The notes: generated from the letters alone by a model not told the origin. A DNA stretch of 6,498 nucleotides from Candidatus Zixiibacteriota bacterium (GCA_030628225.1 DAOVRJ010000145.1:1-6498), one strand, 5' to 3'; numbered from the stretch's first letter, positions 3-6,498 are shown. Numbers and translations are program-made.

Positions 3-170
3 GAGTGGAACGCCACAGCCCAGACCTACAACAAATACCTGGGCATACCCTTCACCGACTTCCCTGTCAGGCCGGGAAGGGCCTATCGGGTGGAGGTGAC
101 GGCCGATGCCACCTGGCCGTTTGGCAGCAAGGCAGTGCCAGGTGATGGGCTAAGACGGCGAAGCCGATAG
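3..170 (+). CDS. C-terminal end of an unidentified protein (5' truncated by window edge)
   Basis: An open frame enters from the left edge and ends at the TAG at 168-170, giving 55 visible residues. They begin EWNATAQTYNKYLG and continue with PFTDFPVRPGRAYRVEVTA, which reads like a beta-rich domain often seen in large secreted proteins of FCB-type candidate phyla (a W-A-x-x-Y...VRPGRAYRVEVT pattern). The last residues, GDGLRRRSR, are basic and do not resemble the sorting domain that ends the next two plus-strand genes, so the frame may have been cut short or shifted. The stop lies 21 bases before a strong terminator. The direction and terminator fit a real gene end. The function is not known, and the family resemblance is from memory only. 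Confidence 0.6.
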   Translation, partial: EWNATAQTYNKYLGIPFTDFPVRPGRAYRVEVTADATWPFGSKAVPGDGLRRRSR

Positions 171-191
171 ATATCTGGAAAACTAAAAATC

Positions 192-220
192 AAAAGGCGG
201 GCTTTGCGCCCGCCTTTTTT
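192..220 (+). terminator. Rho-independent terminator, copy A
   Basis: A perfect GGCGGGC/GCCCGCC stem (196-202 with 208-214) and a TTTGC loop are followed by six T, with four A before the stem that can pair with the first T residues. It ends the partial gene stopping at 170. The same hairpin occurs at 1833-1861 and 4078-4106. Confidence 0.92.
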
Positions 221-343
221 ATCAGTATTATCCCCAAACGGGTTCTTTGGGGGAACCCAGAGAAAAAATCCTCTCAAAAATAAGCGAATCATGAGTACAT
301 AAGCGGAAAAAAACTCGAAATTTAAAAAAATCCAAAAAAAGAT

Positions 344-372
344 TTGACAAGAAACACATAAGATACTATATT
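344..372 (+). promoter_or_regulatory. Sigma-70-type promoter upstream of the Kelch gene
   Basis: TTGACA at 344-349, a 17-base spacer, then TATATT at 367-372, preceded by an A-rich, UP-element-like tract (311-340). Transcription would start near 379, leaving a leader of about 175 bases before the ATG at 554. The same bases also fit the Bacteroidetes pattern TTTG...TAnnTTTG (343-346 and 367-374), so the element matches both promoter types. It is unchanged in copy B. Confidence 0.8.
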
Positions 373-381
373 TGCGCGTTT

Positions 382-432
382 ACGGCCAGAGGAACACTAT
401 TTATGGTGTATCCTGATGGGCAATTAAGGTGA
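382..432 (+). other. Leader mini-ORF, probable half Kelch-unit relic
   Basis: The frame from 382 reads TARGTLFMVYPDGQLR then TGA. It contains an ATG at 403 with AGAGGA (388-393) nine bases upstream, so a nine-residue peptide could be translated. The residues resemble the middle of a Kelch unit (compare SARIDHAMVYIGGDQALL in the neighbouring gene). In copy B the same piece runs into clear Kelch sequence after a frameshift. I read it mainly as a gene relic. A regulatory leader peptide is possible but not shown. Confidence 0.35.
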
Positions 433-553
433 TTGTGGACGGGGAGGGGGTATAAAAAGCCCACAGTGGAGACAATCTGCCAGCATTTGTGTTGAGGAAG
501 TCTTGGGGAGAAAATGAGACGAGGCCAATTTTTAAGGAGGAGGTTTTGTTCAA

Positions 554-1810
554 ATGAGAACAATGCTTTGTAGTTTATTCTTGGTTTGCATTCTCTTAGC
601 CAGTGCAGTAGATGCCGCTGACGACTGGACTCAGAAATTTCCTTCATCGAAACCATCGGCGCGATACGCTCATGCCATGGCTTACATCGGCGGCGATCAG
701 GCGCTTTTATTTGGCGGGACCGCTGGTGGCGATGAAACCTGGGTCTATGATCTCAGCACGAACACCTGGACTCAGACGCCCGAAAGCCCTTCATCCAAAC
801 CATCGGCGCGAATCGACCACGCTATGGTTTACATCGGCGGCGATCAGGCGCTTTTATTTGGCGGGAACGTTGGTGGCGATGAGACCTGGGTCTATGATCT
901 CAGCACGAACACCTGGACTCAGAAAAGCCCTTCATCCAAACCATCGGCGCGATACTTCCACGCTATGGCTTACATCGGCGGCGATCAGGTGCTTTTATTC
1001 GGCGGGGACGATGGTGCTTTTGACGATGAGACCTGGGTCTATGATCTCAGCACGAACACCTGGACCCAGGATACGAATACTACCCAGCCTACGGTTAGAG
1101 CTGGACATGGACTCTCCGAGACCAGCATGGATGGATCGAGCTACCTGGTATTATTTGGCGGGTACGATGGTGCTTACGACGACGAGACCTGGACTTTTGG
1201 CGGCGGGGATTATCCTCTCCCTGTGGAGCTCTCCTCCTTCACCGCCACCGGCGGCCAGGGGATGGTCACCCTGGAGTGGATCACCGAGAGCGAAAGCGAT
1301 AACCTGGGTTTCCATCTGTACCGCAGTGAGCATGATAGTCGAATTTTCCAGAGAATCACCGGGGAGCTGATCGCCGGCTCGGGAAATTCCTCCAGCCCTA
1401 GGGACTACTTCTGGGAAGACCGACGAGTAGAGAATGGCCAGACGTACTGGTACCAACTGCAGAGCATCGACTTCCAGGGACAGACCCGGACATACGGCCC
1501 GGTCAGCGCCACACCCACAGAGGCTCTGCCCCACACTTATCGGCTCAGCCAGAACTACCCCAATCCCTTCAACCCCCAGACCTGGATCAGCTACCAGTTG
1601 CCCGAGTTAAGCTCGGTCACGGTCAAAATTTACAACGTCAGGGGACAGCTGGTGAAGACCCTGTTGGACGGTGAGCAGACTCCCGGTATCCATCGGTTGC
1701 TCTGGGACGGTCGAGATCATAGCGAGGTTCCTCTGGCCAGCGGCGTCTACTTCTGCCGGATGAAATCGAACTCCCACGCCCAAACGGTCAAGATGGTCTT
1801 GCTCCGGTAA
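554..1810 (+). CDS. Secreted Kelch-repeat protein with Fn3-like and C-terminal sorting (T9SS / FlgD-Ig-like) domains
   Basis: 418 residues. The start at 554 is supported by AAGGAGGAGG (534-543), ten bases upstream, and by a signal peptide (MRTMLCSLFLVCILLA..., likely cut after VDA at 19-21). Four Kelch units follow (residues about 25-220), each with an SKPSAR-x-x-HAM...LLFGG...DETWVYDL pattern; units 1-3 are nearly identical and unit 4 is diverged. Residues about 221-320 form an Fn3-like domain opening with PLPVELSSF, and 329-418 a tail with NYPNPFNP, WISYQLP and ASGVYF, typical of type IX secretion cargo or FlgD-Ig-like domains. The protein is probably exported and anchored or released at the cell surface. 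Its ligand is unknown. Four Kelch units are few for a closed propeller, which usually needs five to seven, so it may oligomerise or have lost units. It is flanked by direct repeats at 185-440 and 1826-2081. Confidence 0.9.
   Translation: MRTMLCSLFLVCILLASAVDAADDWTQKFPSSKPSARYAHAMAYIGGDQALLFGGTAGGDETWVYDLSTNTWTQTPESPSSKPSARIDHAMVYIGGDQALLFGGNVGGDETWVYDLSTNTWTQKSPSSKPSARYFHAMAYIGGDQVLLFGGDDGAFDDETWVYDLSTNTWTQDTNTTQPTVRAGHGLSETSMDGSSYLVLFGGYDGAYDDETWTFGGGDYPLPVELSSFTATGGQGMVTLEWITESESDNLGFHLYRSEHDSRIFQRITGELIAGSGNSSSPRDYFWEDRRVENGQTYWYQLQSIDFQGQTRTYGPVSATPTEALPHTYRLSQNYPNPFNPQTWISYQLPELSSVTVKIYNVRGQLVKTLLDGEQTPGIHRLLWDGRDHSEVPLASGVYFCRMKSNSHAQTVKMVLLR
626..1060 (+). repeat. Tandem Kelch-unit repeats in DNA (three units)
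   Basis: Units start at the TGG codons at 626, 767 and 914 and are 141, 147 and 147 bases long; a diverged fourth follows from 1061. The first three share long runs of exact DNA identity (for example around GAGACCTGGGTCTATGATCT) and differ mainly after HAM and after LLFGG. This points to recent in-frame amplification or ongoing homogenisation. Length differences are whole codons. Confidence 0.88.
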
Positions 1811-1861
1811 AAAACGCCTATACTCAAAAATCAAAAGGCGGGCTTTGCGCCCGCCTTTTTT
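1560..1861 (+). repeat. Sorting-domain + terminator module, copy 1
   Basis: Matches 3806-4106. It covers the codons from NPFNP to the stop, the short 3' UTR and the GC-rich terminator. From 1580 to the stop I count 9 mismatches in 231 bases; eight are synonymous and one changes Asn to Ser. The 3' UTR differs by one substitution and one indel. Upstream, the Fn3-like coding sequences of the two genes are clearly diverged in DNA, so identity begins abruptly. Confidence 0.9.
1833..1861 (+). terminator. Rho-independent terminator, copy B
   Basis: Same hairpin as at 192-220: stem 1837-1843 with 1849-1855, five-base loop and six T. It lies 22 bases after the Kelch gene stop. It belongs to both repeat families, being the end of the sorting-domain module and the beginning of the intergenic direct repeat. 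Confidence 0.92.
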
Positions 1862-1984
1862 AATATTATTATCCCCAAACGGGTTCTTTGGGGGAAACCA
1901 GAGAAAAAATCCTCTCAAAAATAAGCGAATCATGAGTACATAAGCGGAATAAAACTCAAAATTTAAAAAAATCCAAAAAAAGAT

Positions 1985-2013
1985 TTGACAAGAAACACAT
2001 AAGATACTATATT
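1985..2013 (+). promoter_or_regulatory. Promoter, copy B, upstream of Kelch relic and GLUG gene
   Basis: TTGACA (1985-1990), a 17-base spacer and TATATT (2008-2013), identical to copy A. If active, it gives a leader of about 390 bases before the GLUG gene ATG at 2413, crossing the relic and a mini-ORF. No terminator is visible between this promoter and 2413. Confidence 0.7.
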
Positions 2014-2022
2014 TGTGCGTTT

Positions 2023-2230
2023 GCGGCCAGAGGAACACTATTTATGGTGTATCCTGATGGGCAATTAAGGTAATGGTGGACTCGGCGAATACGGCGAGTT
2101 TGGCGACAACGATGAGACCTGGGTCTATTATCTGGACGAGAACGCCTGGACCCAGAAAAGCCCCTCCTCAAAACCATCTGAGCGAGAAAATCCTGTTAGC
2201 CATTACGAAATTGTTGAAAGGAGGTGGTAA
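2023..2230 (+). pseudogene. Broken Kelch-repeat fragment
   Basis: Two frames together make one Kelch unit. From 2023 the frame reads AARGTLFMVYPDGQLR and stops at 2071-2073. The next frame, open from 2069 to the TAA at 2228-2230, reads GNGGLGEYGEFG, then DNDETWVYYL, DENAWTQK and SPSSKPSER, matching DETWVYDL...NTWTQKSPSSKPSAR of the gene at 554. A shift between about 2065 and 2072 breaks the unit. There is no signal peptide, no second unit and no tail, so this is a remnant. DNA identity to the intact units is high only around the DETWV...WTQKSPSSKP part. The later half is certainly Kelch-derived; the earlier half is inferred from its position and residues. Confidence 0.75.
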
Positions 2231-2297
2231 GTTCATCGCTTGTTCTTTTTTTGTTCACTGTTTGTCCTGTGTTTTTATAAAACAGGAGGAATCAGTC

Positions 2298-2318
2298 ATG
2301 AAAAAAGGAAACGTTTAG
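2298..2318 (+). other. Six-residue mini-ORF with strong ribosome site
   Basis: ATG at 2298 follows CAGGAGGA (2284-2291) at normal spacing, but the frame (MKKGNV) stops after six residues at 2316-2318. A weak promoter-like pair, TTGTTC (2251-2256) and TTATAA (2275-2280, 18-base spacer), lies just upstream. Another ribosome-site-like AAGGAGG near 2219-2225 has no start codon at useful distance. The stretch 2218-2412 therefore looks like decayed gene starts, or a leader of the GLUG gene. I cannot tell which. Confidence 0.25.
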
Positions 2319-2399
2319 AATTAAGGAATAAATCCCCAGAAGAATTCTCAAACCTAAAGAGAGTTGCATGAACTTGACTCGAAGTATAATTCATTTGTT

Positions 2400-2405
2400 G
2401 GGAGG
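2400..2405 (+). promoter_or_regulatory. Ribosome binding site that fixes the GLUG gene start
   Basis: GGGAGG lies seven bases before the ATG at 2413. The in-frame ATG at 2368 has no comparable site and would put 15 extra residues in front of a clean signal peptide, so 2413 is preferred. Confidence 0.8.
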
Positions 2406-2412
2406 TCAAAAA

Positions 2413-4056
2413 ATGAAGAAAATGCTGCTGATCTTAGCAATAATCGTCCTGGGAACAGGGACGCTGTTTGCCGACGGGACCCAACCTCCCGGTTCGGGCA
2501 CTTCAATAGACCCTTATCAGGTTTCTATACTGGATCATTTATTGTGGATCAGTACGAATTCCAGCTCCTGGGGTTCGTATTTTGAACAAACCGCCAATAT
2601 TGATGCCTCGGCAACAAGCGGTTGGAACGGCGGTGCCGGCTTCTCACCCATTGGCAATAGCTCAACCAAATTCAGCGGCTCTTATGATGGCAACGGCTAT
2701 ACCATCAGTGGCTTGTACATCAATCGCTCTACTAATTGTATTGGTCTTTTTGGTTATACTAACGGTGCCACTATACAGGACCTGGGCGTGACCAATGTGA
2801 ATATTGTCGGTAATGGTCAGGTCGGCGGCCTGGTGGGGTGGAATTCTAATAGCACCGTGAGCAATTGCTATACCACCGGCAGTGTGACGGGGAACGACTG
2901 GGCTGTGGGTGGTTTAGTGGGTCTGAATTATGGATCAAATATTGTGCAGTATTGCTACAGCCTCTGTAGTGCGACAAGTGTGGGCAATCAACAAGTTGGC
3001 GGGTTGGTGGGAAGAAATGGGTGGTTAACGGGTAATACTGTGAGTAACTGCTATAGTCGTGGTGCTGTGACGGGGGGTTACTATTCTGGTGGTTTTATTG
3101 GGACCAATAATGGTGGCAATGAAGTGACCAACTGCTACAGTACTGGTTCTGTAATTGGCACCGATGGAGGTGGAGGAGACAATGTTGGCTTTACTGGTGG
3201 CAACTCGGGAACAGTAAACAACTGTTTTTGGGATACGCAAACCTCCGGAAAATCGGGAAGCGACGCCGGCACCGGCAAAACCACGGCGGAGATGAAAACC
3301 CATACCACTTTCACCGCTGCCGGCTGGGATTTTGAAGTAGAAACAGCGAACGGCACCAACGATTACTGGGATATGGATTACTCCGGAACGATCAATAATG
3401 GTTATCCCTATCTTTCCTGGCAGGATGGCGCTAATGTAAGCTTGCCGGTGGAACTGTCCTCATTTTCCGTTCATGCGCAGAACAATGCGGTCATCATTGC
3501 CTGGACAACAGAGAGTGAATTGGATAATCTGGGTTTTATCCTTGAACGTTCCAAGGGCGATAAGGCATCCTGGCAAGAAATGGCATCGTACAGAACACAT
3601 GATGCCCTAAAAGGCCAGGGCTCCACATCGAGCCGCACAGAATATACGTTTACCGATGTCACTGTCGAGGCCGGTGAGAGTTATTATTATCGCCTCTCGG
3701 ATGTGAGTATTCAAGGTGAGATAACCACCTATCCGCCCATTTTCATTCAACTGGTTGCCCAGCATGTTGCGCAGCCCACAGAATTTGTCCTGTACCAGAA
3801 TACTCCCAATCCCTTTAACCCCGACACCTGGATCAGCTACCAGCTACCCGAGTTAAGCTCAGTCACGGTCAAAATTTACAACGTCAGGGGACAGCTGGTG
3901 AAGACCCTGTTGGACGGTGAGCAGACTCCCGGTATCCATCGGCTGCTCTGGGACGGTCGAGATCATAGCGAGGTTCCTCTGGCCAGCGGGGTTTATTTCT
4001 GCCGAATGAAATCGAGCTCCCACGCCCAAACGGTCAAGATGGTCTTGCTCCGGTAA
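2413..4056 (+). CDS. Secreted GLUG-repeat protein with Fn3-like and C-terminal sorting (T9SS / FlgD-Ig-like) domains
   Basis: 547 residues. A signal peptide (MKKMLLILAIIVLGTGTLFA) is probably cut before D21. A beta-rich N-terminal part follows (FSGSYDGNGYTISGLYI near 87-103). GLUG-type repeats come next: VGGLVG at 137, 165 and 195, SGGFIG at 225 and a last one near 258, about 28-32 residues apart, most with an NCY motif. They end in CFWDTQTSG and GTGKTTAEMK (271-295) and NGYPYLSWQ (329-337), the usual closing motifs of such beta-helix-like adhesins. LPVELSSF at 344 opens an Fn3-like domain, and 458-547 is a YPNPFNP-type tail (here NTPNPFNP). It is probably an exported surface or adhesin-like protein; its ligand is unknown. 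The passenger DNA looks richer in A+T than the tail and the minus-strand genes, which may mean a separate origin. It converges on the radical SAM gene. Confidence 0.9.
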   Translation: MKKMLLILAIIVLGTGTLFADGTQPPGSGTSIDPYQVSILDHLLWISTNSSSWGSYFEQTANIDASATSGWNGGAGFSPIGNSSTKFSGSYDGNGYTISGLYINRSTNCIGLFGYTNGATIQDLGVTNVNIVGNGQVGGLVGWNSNSTVSNCYTTGSVTGNDWAVGGLVGLNYGSNIVQYCYSLCSATSVGNQQVGGLVGRNGWLTGNTVSNCYSRGAVTGGYYSGGFIGTNNGGNEVTNCYSTGSVIGTDGGGGDNVGFTGGNSGTVNNCFWDTQTSGKSGSDAGTGKTTAEMKTHTTFTAAGWDFEVETANGTNDYWDMDYSGTINNGYPYLSWQDGANVSLPVELSSFSVHAQNNAVIIAWTTESELDNLGFILERSKGDKASWQEMASYRTHDALKGQGSTSSRTEYTFTDVTVEAGESYYYRLSDVSIQGEITTYPPIFIQLVAQHVAQPTEFVLYQNTPNPFNPDTWISYQLPELSSVTVKIYNVRGQLVKTLLDGEQTPGIHRLLWDGRDHSEVPLASGVYFCRMKSSSHAQTVKMVLLR

Positions 4057-4106
4057 AAACGCCTATAGTCAAAAATCAAAAGGCGGGCTTTGCGCCCGCC
4101 TTTTTT
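3806..4106 (+). repeat. Sorting-domain + terminator module, copy 2
   Basis: Partner of 1560-1861, offset 2246 bases over the coding part. The last 76 residues of the two proteins differ at one position only (Asn to Ser, in MKSNSHAQ versus MKSSSHAQ). The repeat stops just after the terminator T-run; the promoter-leader part found after copy 1 is absent here. Confidence 0.9.
4078..4106. terminator. Terminator, copy C, probably bidirectional
   Basis: Stem 4082-4088 with 4094-4100, then TTTTTT on the plus strand, ending the GLUG gene. On the minus strand the same stem is followed by TTTTGATTTTTGA, so it can also end the leftward radical SAM operon, whose stop codon is about 110 bases away. Confidence 0.88.
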
Positions 4107-4200: not shown

Positions 4201-4216
4201 ATATTCGCAGAATATC
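4200..4216. other. Perfect 7-bp inverted repeat at the radical SAM stop codon
   Basis: GATATTC-GCA-GAATATC forms a short AT-rich hairpin overlapping the TGA stop of the radical SAM gene. No T-run follows on either strand, so it is not a standard terminator. It might protect the 3' end of the mRNA or be chance. Confidence 0.4.
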
Positions 4217-5144
4217 ACTCCTCCCCCACAAAAAAGTATCTCCTGCCTTCATGGGTCTTCTGCGAAATTAACCTCTCCTCCAAAAGAACCCCCACGAACT
4301 TGGCCACCTCATGACGGTGGCGGCCCAGGGCCGTGGCCATCTCATCCATCGTGCAGGGACGGCGTCCCAGCATCTCGATGATAACCTCCCGCACCTCCTG
4401 GGGGCACCTCTTCCGGCGCACAGAGGGAGGCTGTGAAATCACTGTGGCCCGCTCCCCAAACAGGTTGCGGATCTCCTCCATCCGCCGGGGTATCAACGGT
4501 TTGGCGAAGCTCTCCGCCGGCGGCCGGATAGCGGTATTCAGGTCAATCCCATCTGGATCAATCCGGGCGATCTGCTCCCGGAACCTCTCCAGCTCTTCGG
4601 AGCCATCGTTGATGCCCTTTAACAGCAACACTTCCAGGCGGATCTTGCCCTGGTACCGGGCCCGAAAATCAGCCAGCCCGCTCACGATCTTCTCCAGACT
4701 CAAGGAGGCGTGCGGCCTGTTCACCTGCTGAAAGACCGCCTCTGTGCCCGCATCCAGGGAAGGTAAAATCAGATCGGCGGCCAACAGTTCCTCCTGAACC
4801 TGCTTATCCCAGAGCATGGAGCTGTTGGTGATGACCGCCACAGGCACATGCGTTATCTGCTTGACCCCGCGGATGAGCCAGCCCAGGTCAGAGTTCAGGG
4901 TGGGCTCTCCCGAGCCGGAGAAGGAAATAATATCCGGGCTGGTACCCGACTCCAGCGCGCTCCTGATCTGGTCTAAGATCACATCGGCGGAATAAAAACT
5001 CTCTCGCCGGACAGACTTGCCGGTCGTCCGCCCCAACTGACAGTACACACAGTCGAAGCTGCATACCTTAAAGGGGACCAGGTCCACCCCCAGGGAGAGA
5101 CCCAGCCGCCGCGATACTACCGGGCCGTACAGGTGTGATTTCAT
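4215..5144 (-). CDS. Radical SAM protein, COG0731-like Fe-S oxidoreductase with C-terminal winged helix
   Basis: 309 residues. The cluster motif CSFDCVYC has cysteines at 28, 32 and 35 (CxxxCxxC), the ligands of the 4Fe-4S cluster that cleaves S-adenosylmethionine. SGSGEPTLN at 76-84 is the SAM-contacting GEP motif, and ITNSSM (105-110) and VLLLKGIND (172-180) fit the barrel of this family. Residues about 247-309 look like a winged helix (PCTMDEMATALGR...VAKFVGVLLEERLI...RRYFFVG), seen in several COG0731 relatives. The ATG at 5144 is chosen because the family begins with this YGPV-SRRLG-SLGVDLVP stretch; longer versions would run over the zinc-ribbon gene. The ribosome site is weak (GGAGAG, about 13 bases away). 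It follows the zinc-ribbon gene by 44 bases, as probable last gene of the operon. The substrate is unknown. Confidence 0.9.
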   Translation of the reverse strand: MKSHLYGPVVSRRLGLSLGVDLVPFKVCSFDCVYCQLGRTTGKSVRRESFYSADVILDQIRSALESGTSPDIISFSGSGEPTLNSDLGWLIRGVKQITHVPVAVITNSSMLWDKQVQEELLAADLILPSLDAGTEAVFQQVNRPHASLSLEKIVSGLADFRARYQGKIRLEVLLLKGINDGSEELERFREQIARIDPDGIDLNTAIRPPAESFAKPLIPRRMEEIRNLFGERATVISQPPSVRRKRCPQEVREVIIEMLGRRPCTMDEMATALGRHRHEVAKFVGVLLEERLISQKTHEGRRYFFVGEE

Positions 5145-5188
5145 CTGAACCGCTTTCTCTCCGGCATCAAAAGTAAACTGCCGACAGG

Positions 5189-5443
5189 CTACCGGCCACA
5201 ACACCGCTTGGGGTCGCTGCAGGGGTTGGTGGTACCGCAGCACGAGGGAGCATCCTGGGCCGTCTGGCCGCTGAATTTCGGCGTCGGGGCACCACCCTTG
5301 AACACAAATCCACCGCCACCGGTGATCACCCGGTGAACCTTGCCGGCACACTTCGGACACCGCTTCAGGGGCGCATCTTTCATCCCCTGAGATTGCTCGA
5401 ACTGATGTCCGCATTTCTCACAGCGATATTCATAGGTAGGCAT
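5189..5443 (-). CDS. FmdB-family small zinc-ribbon protein with Cys-rich tail
   Basis: 84 residues beginning MPTYEYRCEKCGHQFE, the hallmark start of the FmdB / CxxC_CxxC_SSSS family. Zinc would be held by C8, C11, C29 and C32 (RCEKCG and RCPKCAG). A Gly-rich loop (TGGGGFVFKGG) follows, and the C-terminal end carries five more cysteines (68, 69, 75, 81, 82), which could bind a further metal. The ATG at 5443 follows a good ribosome site (GGAGGA), about five bases upstream. It lies 20 bases after the DUF364 gene and 44 before the radical SAM gene, all on the same strand. Family members are called putative regulatory proteins, but their function is not settled. Confidence 0.9.
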   Translation of the reverse strand: MPTYEYRCEKCGHQFEQSQGMKDAPLKRCPKCAGKVHRVITGGGGFVFKGGAPTPKFSGQTAQDAPSCCGTTNPCSDPKRCCGR

Positions 5444-5463
5444 TCGTCTTCCTCCGTGAAAAA

Positions 5464-6180
5464 TCACCGTTCGATACACACAAGCCTGACTCCTCTGACC
5501 TGCCGAAAGATGGCCCCCTCCTGGATGTGTCGGATGACCACCTGGGGGTCCGCAGCCTGAACCCCGCAGAGGGCGTTCAGGCCGTAATCGAGAAGAACCG
5601 GTGACAGAGGCGTGGTGGCCCCCAGCATGATGCGGAAGCTGTCCTGGCGGCACTTCTGCAGGATCTCCGGCAGAGTGTGGTTGATCAAAGTGGTGGCGCT
5701 GATGGCCACCACATCGGCCTGAGGCAGAACACGCCCGGCCTCGCTTTGGGGCAAATCGCCGGGACGCAGCCGTTGTTCGATAACCCAGAGGGTTTCGACA
5801 TGATCTCTCAATCTGGTCACAAAGGGAAAGTGGCCGATGACGGCGACCTTCCTGCCGGCGCTTCTCTCAACCAACAGCTCTTCCGCGTTGACCTCTTCTC
5901 CCTTAACCCTGGGCAGCATGGAGTTAATGGCCGCCATGCCGATGCTGGCCTCTATCAGGCTGTCCGAATTGGCCAGCCGGCAGAGCTCCCGGGCCGTTTT
6001 GTCCGTCAAATGGCCGGCTTCCTCCACCGGCCGGGACGGATGGCCGGGACACTCATCCCGCAGCGTCGATGCCAGACCCAGATAACGGGTCCACACGGCG
6101 GTCCAGTATGCGCAGACCCACACCTCCCGGACAGGATGATCCGGCTCCAGTGCGGCGATGAGATCATCGATGGGTGACAT
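5464..6180 (-). CDS. DUF4213/DUF364 protein, putative heavy-metal chelation family
   Basis: 238 residues. The N-terminal part (about 1-85) resembles DUF4213, including GMAAINSML (81-89), and the C-terminal part resembles DUF364 (PF04016), with KVAVIGHFPFV (111-121), LPQADVVAISATTLINHTL (151-169) and MLGATTPLSPVLLDYGLNAL (184-203). The only functional proposal I know for this family is structural: a Rossmann-like plus enolase-N-like fold suggested to take part in heavy-metal chelation. The length is normal. The ATG at 6180 is preceded by AGAGGG, eight bases away. It is the first of three leftward genes separated by 20 and 44 bases, so the metal-linked reading is shared with a zinc ribbon and an Fe-S radical enzyme. 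The pathway is not known. Confidence 0.85.
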   Translation of the reverse strand: MSPIDDLIAALEPDHPVREVWVCAYWTAVWTRYLGLASTLRDECPGHPSRPVEEAGHLTDKTARELCRLANSDSLIEASIGMAAINSMLPRVKGEEVNAEELLVERSAGRKVAVIGHFPFVTRLRDHVETLWVIEQRLRPGDLPQSEAGRVLPQADVVAISATTLINHTLPEILQKCRQDSFRIMLGATTPLSPVLLDYGLNALCGVQAADPQVVIRHIQEGAIFRQVRGVRLVCIER

Positions 6181-6283: not shown

Positions 6284-6335
6284 AAGTTGAGAGAGTTTTG
6301 AGAGTTCAGAGAGTTTGGAGAGTTGTGAGTTCGGA
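6284..6335 (+). repeat. 9-bp tandem array, left arm (GAGTTnnGA)
   Basis: Five 9-bp units run from 6284: AAGTTGAGA, GAGTTTTGA, GAGTTCAGA, GAGTTTGGA, GAGTTGTGA. A sixth GAGTTCGGA begins two bases early at 6327. Only positions 6-7 vary freely. The array lies upstream of the minus-strand operon, in a region with no supported gene. Confidence 0.8.
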
Positions 6336-6460
6336 ACGCGAAACGAAAATAGCTAAATAAAAATGTCAGGGATTGGGTGGAGTAATATTCCGAATCTTTG
6401 ATTGCTCCGAACTCCCAGCTCTGCACTCCGAGTTATGGCTGTTCCCAGCTTCGATTTTTT

Positions 6461-6498
6461 AACTCGCTAAACTCCCTCAACTCGCCCAACTCTCTAAA
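6461..6498 (-). repeat. 9-bp tandem array, right arm (inverted, runs off window)
   Basis: AACTC occurs at 6461, 6470, 6479 and 6488, exactly nine bases apart, which is GAGTTnnnn on the minus strand. The last two bases (AA) fit a further unit beyond the window. The orientation is opposite to the array at 6284, so the two form arms about 130 bases apart. The intervening 6336-6460 contains no gene that I can support; TCCGAACTC at 6406 pairs with GAGTTCGGA at 6327. Confidence 0.75.

Follow-up and report, generated by a model that had tools for sequence, protein, structure and literature searches.

How did two neighbouring genes with unrelated passengers come to end in nearly the same sequence? 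The question is raised by a Kelch-repeat gene and a GLUG-repeat gene in the window analysed here, which is the entire contig C145 (6,498 bp) of a 306-contig, 2.34-Mb assembly that is 92% complete. The features concerned are as follows.

554..1810, plus strand: Kelch gene, with signal-like N terminus, Kelch repeats, Fn3-like spacer and sorting tail (ORF; Kelch, FlgD_ig and Por_Secre_tail matches)
1562..1810, plus strand: sorting tail of the Kelch copy, NPFN to stop (TIGR04183, 37.8 bits, cut-off 23)
1549..1861, plus strand: repeat of tail, 3′ UTR and terminator T2 (94.9% identity to 3795-4106)
2413..4056, plus strand: GLUG gene, with signal-like N terminus, GLUG repeats, Fn3-like spacer and sorting tail (ORF; first ATG 2368)
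3795..4106, plus strand: repeat of Kelch-type tail (from 3808), 3′ UTR and terminator T3 of the GLUG gene (94.9% identity to 1549-1861)
4078-4104: hairpin T3, within the 3795..4106 repeat

Two putative T9SS cargo proteins with one tail

Hydrophobic, signal-like N termini are visible by eye in the Kelch and GLUG ORFs (MRTMLCSLFLVCILLASAVDA, MKKMLLILAIIVLGTGTLFA), and the sorting domains of both sit at the C terminus and score above the curated cut-offs of two families (TIGR04183, 37.8 and 32.4 bits for the two tails, cut-off 23; PF18962, 34.1 and 27.1 bits, cut-off 27). The GLUG repeats match PF07581 (43.6 bits, cut-off 20.5). We use "Fn3-like" for the spacer as a description only, not as a family assignment, and a Pfam search of this segment returned no match. 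A profile search of the same genome gave a SprA_N match on contig C258 (113.6 bits), and contig C166 carries a PorV-family match (259 bits) and a PorU match (743 bits, cut-off 420). Because SprA-, PorV- and PorU-type proteins are encoded and both tails pass the cut-offs, both proteins are likely exported through the T9SS. In all, this genome (G000) holds 22 PorV-family matches, far beyond the need for one or two shuttle proteins.

We defined the tail from the N of NPFN (1562 in the Kelch gene, 3808 in the GLUG gene) to the stop, giving 83 codons with the stop included. The two copies of the repeat lie 2246 bp apart and align over 314 bases; their identity extends through the 3′ UTR, begins abruptly at NPFN and stops precisely at the final T of the terminator. 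The original prediction had the spacing and the onset right and had put the likeness at about 96%. Its tally of eight synonymous differences in nine over 76 codons was close but inexact: 12 nucleotide differences affect 10 of the 83 codons, 8 of them synonymously, leaving two amino-acid changes (Q to D and N to S). Any clustering of these differences as later conversion patches is suggestive only (p 0.05 and 0.16). Synonymous divergence (dS) is 0.18 in the tail, whereas the 93 aligned codons upstream are saturated (pS 0.89), and the protein similarity of the two spacers is kept despite this saturation. The Fn3-like domains are therefore alike in protein and diverged in DNA, as had been proposed, rather than equally similar in DNA.

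Outside this pair, every tail in the genome is at most 78% identical to this one in DNA over an aligned stretch, which excludes chance as the source of the likeness. The tail had also been described as a mobile-looking module, and this part of the prediction did not survive. The near-identical tail occurs in two copies, both on C145, and its hairpin is unique to that contig; a tail found nowhere else had been named as counting against the idea, and this literally describes the near-identical sequence, though some 69 diverged tails exist. No mobility gene was seen among the window ORFs examined, and no orphan tail lies within the window. A dispersed mobile tail was rejected, as the genome holds no further near-identical copy and the next best match reaches 78% in DNA.

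The GLUG gene is joined at the NPFN codons

Two further genes place the parts of the locus, one in the same genome (C210) and one on contig C77 of the comparison genome G001, the nearest available relative, from the same family within the Zixibacteria. None of the relatives searched was a same-genus genome showing the ancestral state.

3507..3816 (about), plus strand: Fn3-like segment in common with the C210 gene (129/139 informative sites C210-type)
3816..3820, plus strand: crossover interval in the F-N-P codons of NPFNP (last C210-type base 3816, first Kelch-type base 3820)
1227..1237, plus strand: Kelch/Fn3-like join, codons for PLPVELSS, where the matches to G001 contigs C20 and C77 meet

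In a three-way comparison of the GLUG, C210 and Kelch genes, informative sites divide 129:10 between C210-type and Kelch-type at 3507-3819 and 2:100 at 3820-4059, where 100 of 102 are Kelch-type (Fisher p 4e-53 for left against right; best change-point 3816). The GLUG and C210 genes are 94% identical in DNA across the final 168 aligned spacer bases, and their dS is 0.25 in the spacer (0.14 in its last 56 codons) and 1.67 in the tail. The C210 gene carries another tail and another passenger, with no DNA match to the GLUG gene upstream of about 3507. Toward its 3′ end the spacer becomes more alike in the two genes, identity going from about 75% to 100%, a gradient such as several conversion tracts with different endpoints would leave. 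Tested for mosaicism, the GLUG gene shows two parents whose relationships reverse at one point, synonymous sites included; on this sequence comparison it is demonstrably a mosaic, with an in-frame join at the NPFN codons. This join is mapped at the right-hand end of the replacement only, and a search of the same genome did not find the source of the GLUG passenger.

The Kelch spacer and tail match the G001 C77 gene at 74.8% from 1227 onward, collinear over 539 bp and close to the distance normally seen between the two genomes, whose other long matches lie at 76-81%; that gene encodes 897 aa with a passenger other than Kelch. Since spacer and tail are collinear there, the tail belongs with the Kelch spacer and the GLUG gene is the recipient, shown by these alignments to have received a Kelch-type tail. 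The Kelch part matches C20 of G001 at 73.9%, ending at 1237. By these matches the Kelch gene, too, is a composite when set against G001, with repeats akin to C20 and spacer plus tail akin to C77. The G001 Kelch genes on C20 and C22 (n=2) have no spacer of this kind ahead of their tails. Within the Kelch repeats, two units at 641-923, spaced 147 bp apart, are 92% identical in DNA, and by this likeness the propeller is one that has recently turned over internally.

A second repeat and a Kelch remnant

The window contains another direct repeat, overlooked in the original prediction, as was a fragment of a Kelch gene.

185..440, plus strand: repeat copy 1, terminator T1 and promoter region P1 (256 bp, 96.1% identity to 1826-2081)
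1826..2081, plus strand: repeat copy 2, terminator T2 and promoter region P2 (96.1% identity to 185-440)
344..372, plus strand: predicted sigma-70-like promoter TTGACA-17-TATATT, copy 1 (11/12 consensus positions; consensus match only)
1985-2013, plus strand: predicted promoter, copy 2, identical to copy 1
2102..2188, plus strand: Kelch-repeat remnant without start or signal sequence (29 aa, 69% identity to Kelch residues 106-134)

The order of the locus is T1-P1-Kelch-tail-T2-P2-Kelch remnant-GLUG-tail-T3. Promoter repeats come after T1 and T2 and tail repeats come before T2 and T3, an arrangement which suggests a tandem duplication of promoter, gene, tail and terminator with replacement of the second passenger. 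The 36-bp terminator is present in three identical copies on C145, and searches of the same genome found neither its hairpin (up to 2 mismatches allowed) nor the terminator-promoter repeat on any other contig. The tails have diverged further at synonymous sites (16%) than the two copies of the promoter repeat have (4%; Fisher p 0.0025), so that the two blocks may differ in age. The 87-bp Kelch remnant, between P2 and the GLUG gene, is 83% identical in DNA to 877-952, against 95-96% in the surrounding repeats, and may therefore have a less direct origin than plain copying from this Kelch gene.

At the left edge of the window (3-170) lies the 3′ end of an upstream ORF (...YRVEVTADATWPFGSKAVPGDGLRRRSR), without sorting tail or Pfam match and followed directly by T1; a cargo gene may have lost its tail here. 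On the minus strand, 4215-6180 encodes a radical SAM protein and a DUF364/DUF4213 protein, and between their genes is a small CxxC-rich ORF with the look, by eye only, of an FmdB-type zinc ribbon. At the right edge (6285-6498) a 9-bp unit is repeated imperfectly in tandem (AGTTNNGAG), and an inverted copy lies where the contig ends (38 nt, 79% complementary); a 56-bp stretch there has a 79% match to contig C28.

Origin of the locus

We consider it probable that a cassette was duplicated in tandem and that a GLUG passenger with a C210-type spacer then replaced the Kelch passenger and spacer in the second copy. On this view both genes are mosaics of three separable parts, of which the first is the signal sequence with its passenger, the second the Fn3-like spacer and the third a type IX sorting tail followed by its terminator. 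The duplicated unit would have comprised promoter, Kelch gene, tail and terminator. The right-hand crossover of the replacement in copy 2 lies within the strongly conserved QNYPNPFN codons, which would have preserved the reading frame and left the new GLUG gene with a Kelch-type tail and the 3′ UTR and terminator that follow it; the upstream promoter copy and the Kelch remnant would have stayed behind. We infer that duplication preceded replacement and that homologous recombination was seeded at NPFN; the swapped tail presumably still exports its protein through the T9SS.

A different history, which we regard as rather unlikely, is gene conversion confined to the tail region. The GLUG gene would already have lain downstream of the Kelch gene, Kelch sequence would have been written over the GLUG tail, 3′ UTR and terminator, and the promoter region would have been duplicated separately. 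The evidence at the NPFN junction is equally compatible with such an event, the unequal divergence of the tail and promoter repeats would suit it, and on C20 of G001 neighbouring genes with unrelated passengers share tails whose similarity fades near the gene end. It would, however, turn the terminator-promoter repeat and the Kelch remnant into separate coincidences, and these two features favour duplication with passenger replacement. The original prediction had left passenger exchange and gene conversion side by side, and that choice is narrowed by the identification of the GLUG gene as recipient. Its picture of passengers swapped in frame onto a common tail stands as to the separable parts and the NPFN join, given the GLUG mosaic and the recurring discordance described below, but not as to a common or mobile tail, with two copies on one contig.

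Wrong joining of pieces of different genes during assembly is very improbable. The window is a whole 6,498-bp contig of a 306-contig assembly, and such repeats trouble assemblers; against this, the C210 and Kelch sequences share only about 11 identical bases at the NPFN join, far under usual assembly word lengths, the 12 substitutions of its own in the GLUG tail mark a second real copy, and a join of the same kind occurs in another genome (C71/C75, below). Selection on the export signal alone is refuted. The tail is indeed the part common to all these proteins, but a typical pair of tails shows 44% identity in protein and 53% in DNA, and the likeness of the Kelch/GLUG pair extends to synonymous sites, the 3′ UTR and the terminator.

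Passenger and tail discordance recurs

We then pooled the 153 tail genes of the own genome and G001. Four pairs rank highest in likeness of upstream DNA (at least 85%), and two of them have unrelated tails. One is GLUG/C210 (94% upstream, 57% in tail DNA), and the other, C71/C75 of G001, is 86% identical in DNA up to NPFN (dS 0.19) and then continues into unrelated tails (51%), the similarity changing at NPFN as in the GLUG/C210 join. The pair C24/C52, also among the four, shows a dip inside the tail.

The converse situation is found on C20 of G001, where adjoining genes with unrelated passengers have tails up to 84% alike. Tails at least 68% alike without upstream homology occur in 7/33 neighbouring pairs and 64/5818 other pairs; the 7 pairs come from three contigs and so from few clusters, and pairs are not independent. 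The enrichment is at the upper end only, as the median tail likeness of neighbours is not significant (p 0.08). Locus L144 (G001 C20:1384-8547) has four adjacent same-strand genes with unrelated passengers and tails 68-84% alike in DNA.

The codons surrounding NPFN are far better conserved in DNA than their flanks. Exact in-register runs of at least 16 nt are found at NPFN in 5-10% of gene pairs, in none in linkers, and in fewer than 0.3% in a stretch inside the tail. This conservation points to NPFN as the likeliest site for homologous pairing between genes with unrelated passengers, and an in-frame crossover there would keep both the passenger and the full tail. It is possible, and we propose it tentatively, that in these Zixibacteria, with roughly 70-100 tail genes per genome, the QNYPNPFN codons act as a standing recombination seed through which passengers exchange tails and neighbours tend to come to share them, any passenger added in frame ahead of NPFN thereby being exported. 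With the same join in a gene pair of each of two related bacteria, it appears that surface proteins of this kind and their export signals are exchanged in evolution like interchangeable parts.

The locus illustrates, down to single bases, a route by which a bacterium with many T9SS cargo genes can gain a new exported surface protein, through a join of a passenger and a tail already in the genome within a block of conserved codons. Natural tail swaps within a genome show which combinations have been kept by evolution, and the discordance is a warning that passenger orthology and tail orthology need separate treatment in these families.

Comparison with known systems

The two proteins resemble T9SS type A sorting domain proteins (TIGR04183/PF18962, with FlgD_ig, PF13860) in their C-terminal tails and in the accompanying SprA/PorU/PorV-type genes. 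Membership of this family says nothing of tail exchange, and cargo status here comes from sequence. A literature search, incomplete because most subscription journals lay outside it, returned nothing relevant on tail exchange in Zixibacteria or at NPFNP. Published work shows that a CTD has to suit the domain before it and that one brought in from a different species may not function (PMC11285876).

In Rhs proteins, a conserved stretch allows one protein end to be replaced by C-terminal displacement (PMC2935791), and here likewise one end is replaced at a conserved stretch and the rest kept. In Rhs, however, the core is kept, the tip varies and orphan tips form arrays, whereas here the C-terminal end is common and the passenger varies; with a shared C terminus and no orphan tail in the window, Rhs-type displacement was rejected. 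The gingipain/HagA adhesins of Porphyromonas gingivalis are modular T9SS cargo that rearranges, with recombination decoupling their domains (PMC5266723), and in both systems T9SS cargo genes are built by combining domain modules. In P. gingivalis it is adhesin modules that move among related genes and the C-terminal domain is conserved, whereas here the sorting tail joins unrelated passengers at NPFN. Shuffling of domains in T9SS cargo is an established process, of which this locus preserves an unusually clear junction; unlike in the systems compared, the exchanged part is the export tail together with its terminator.
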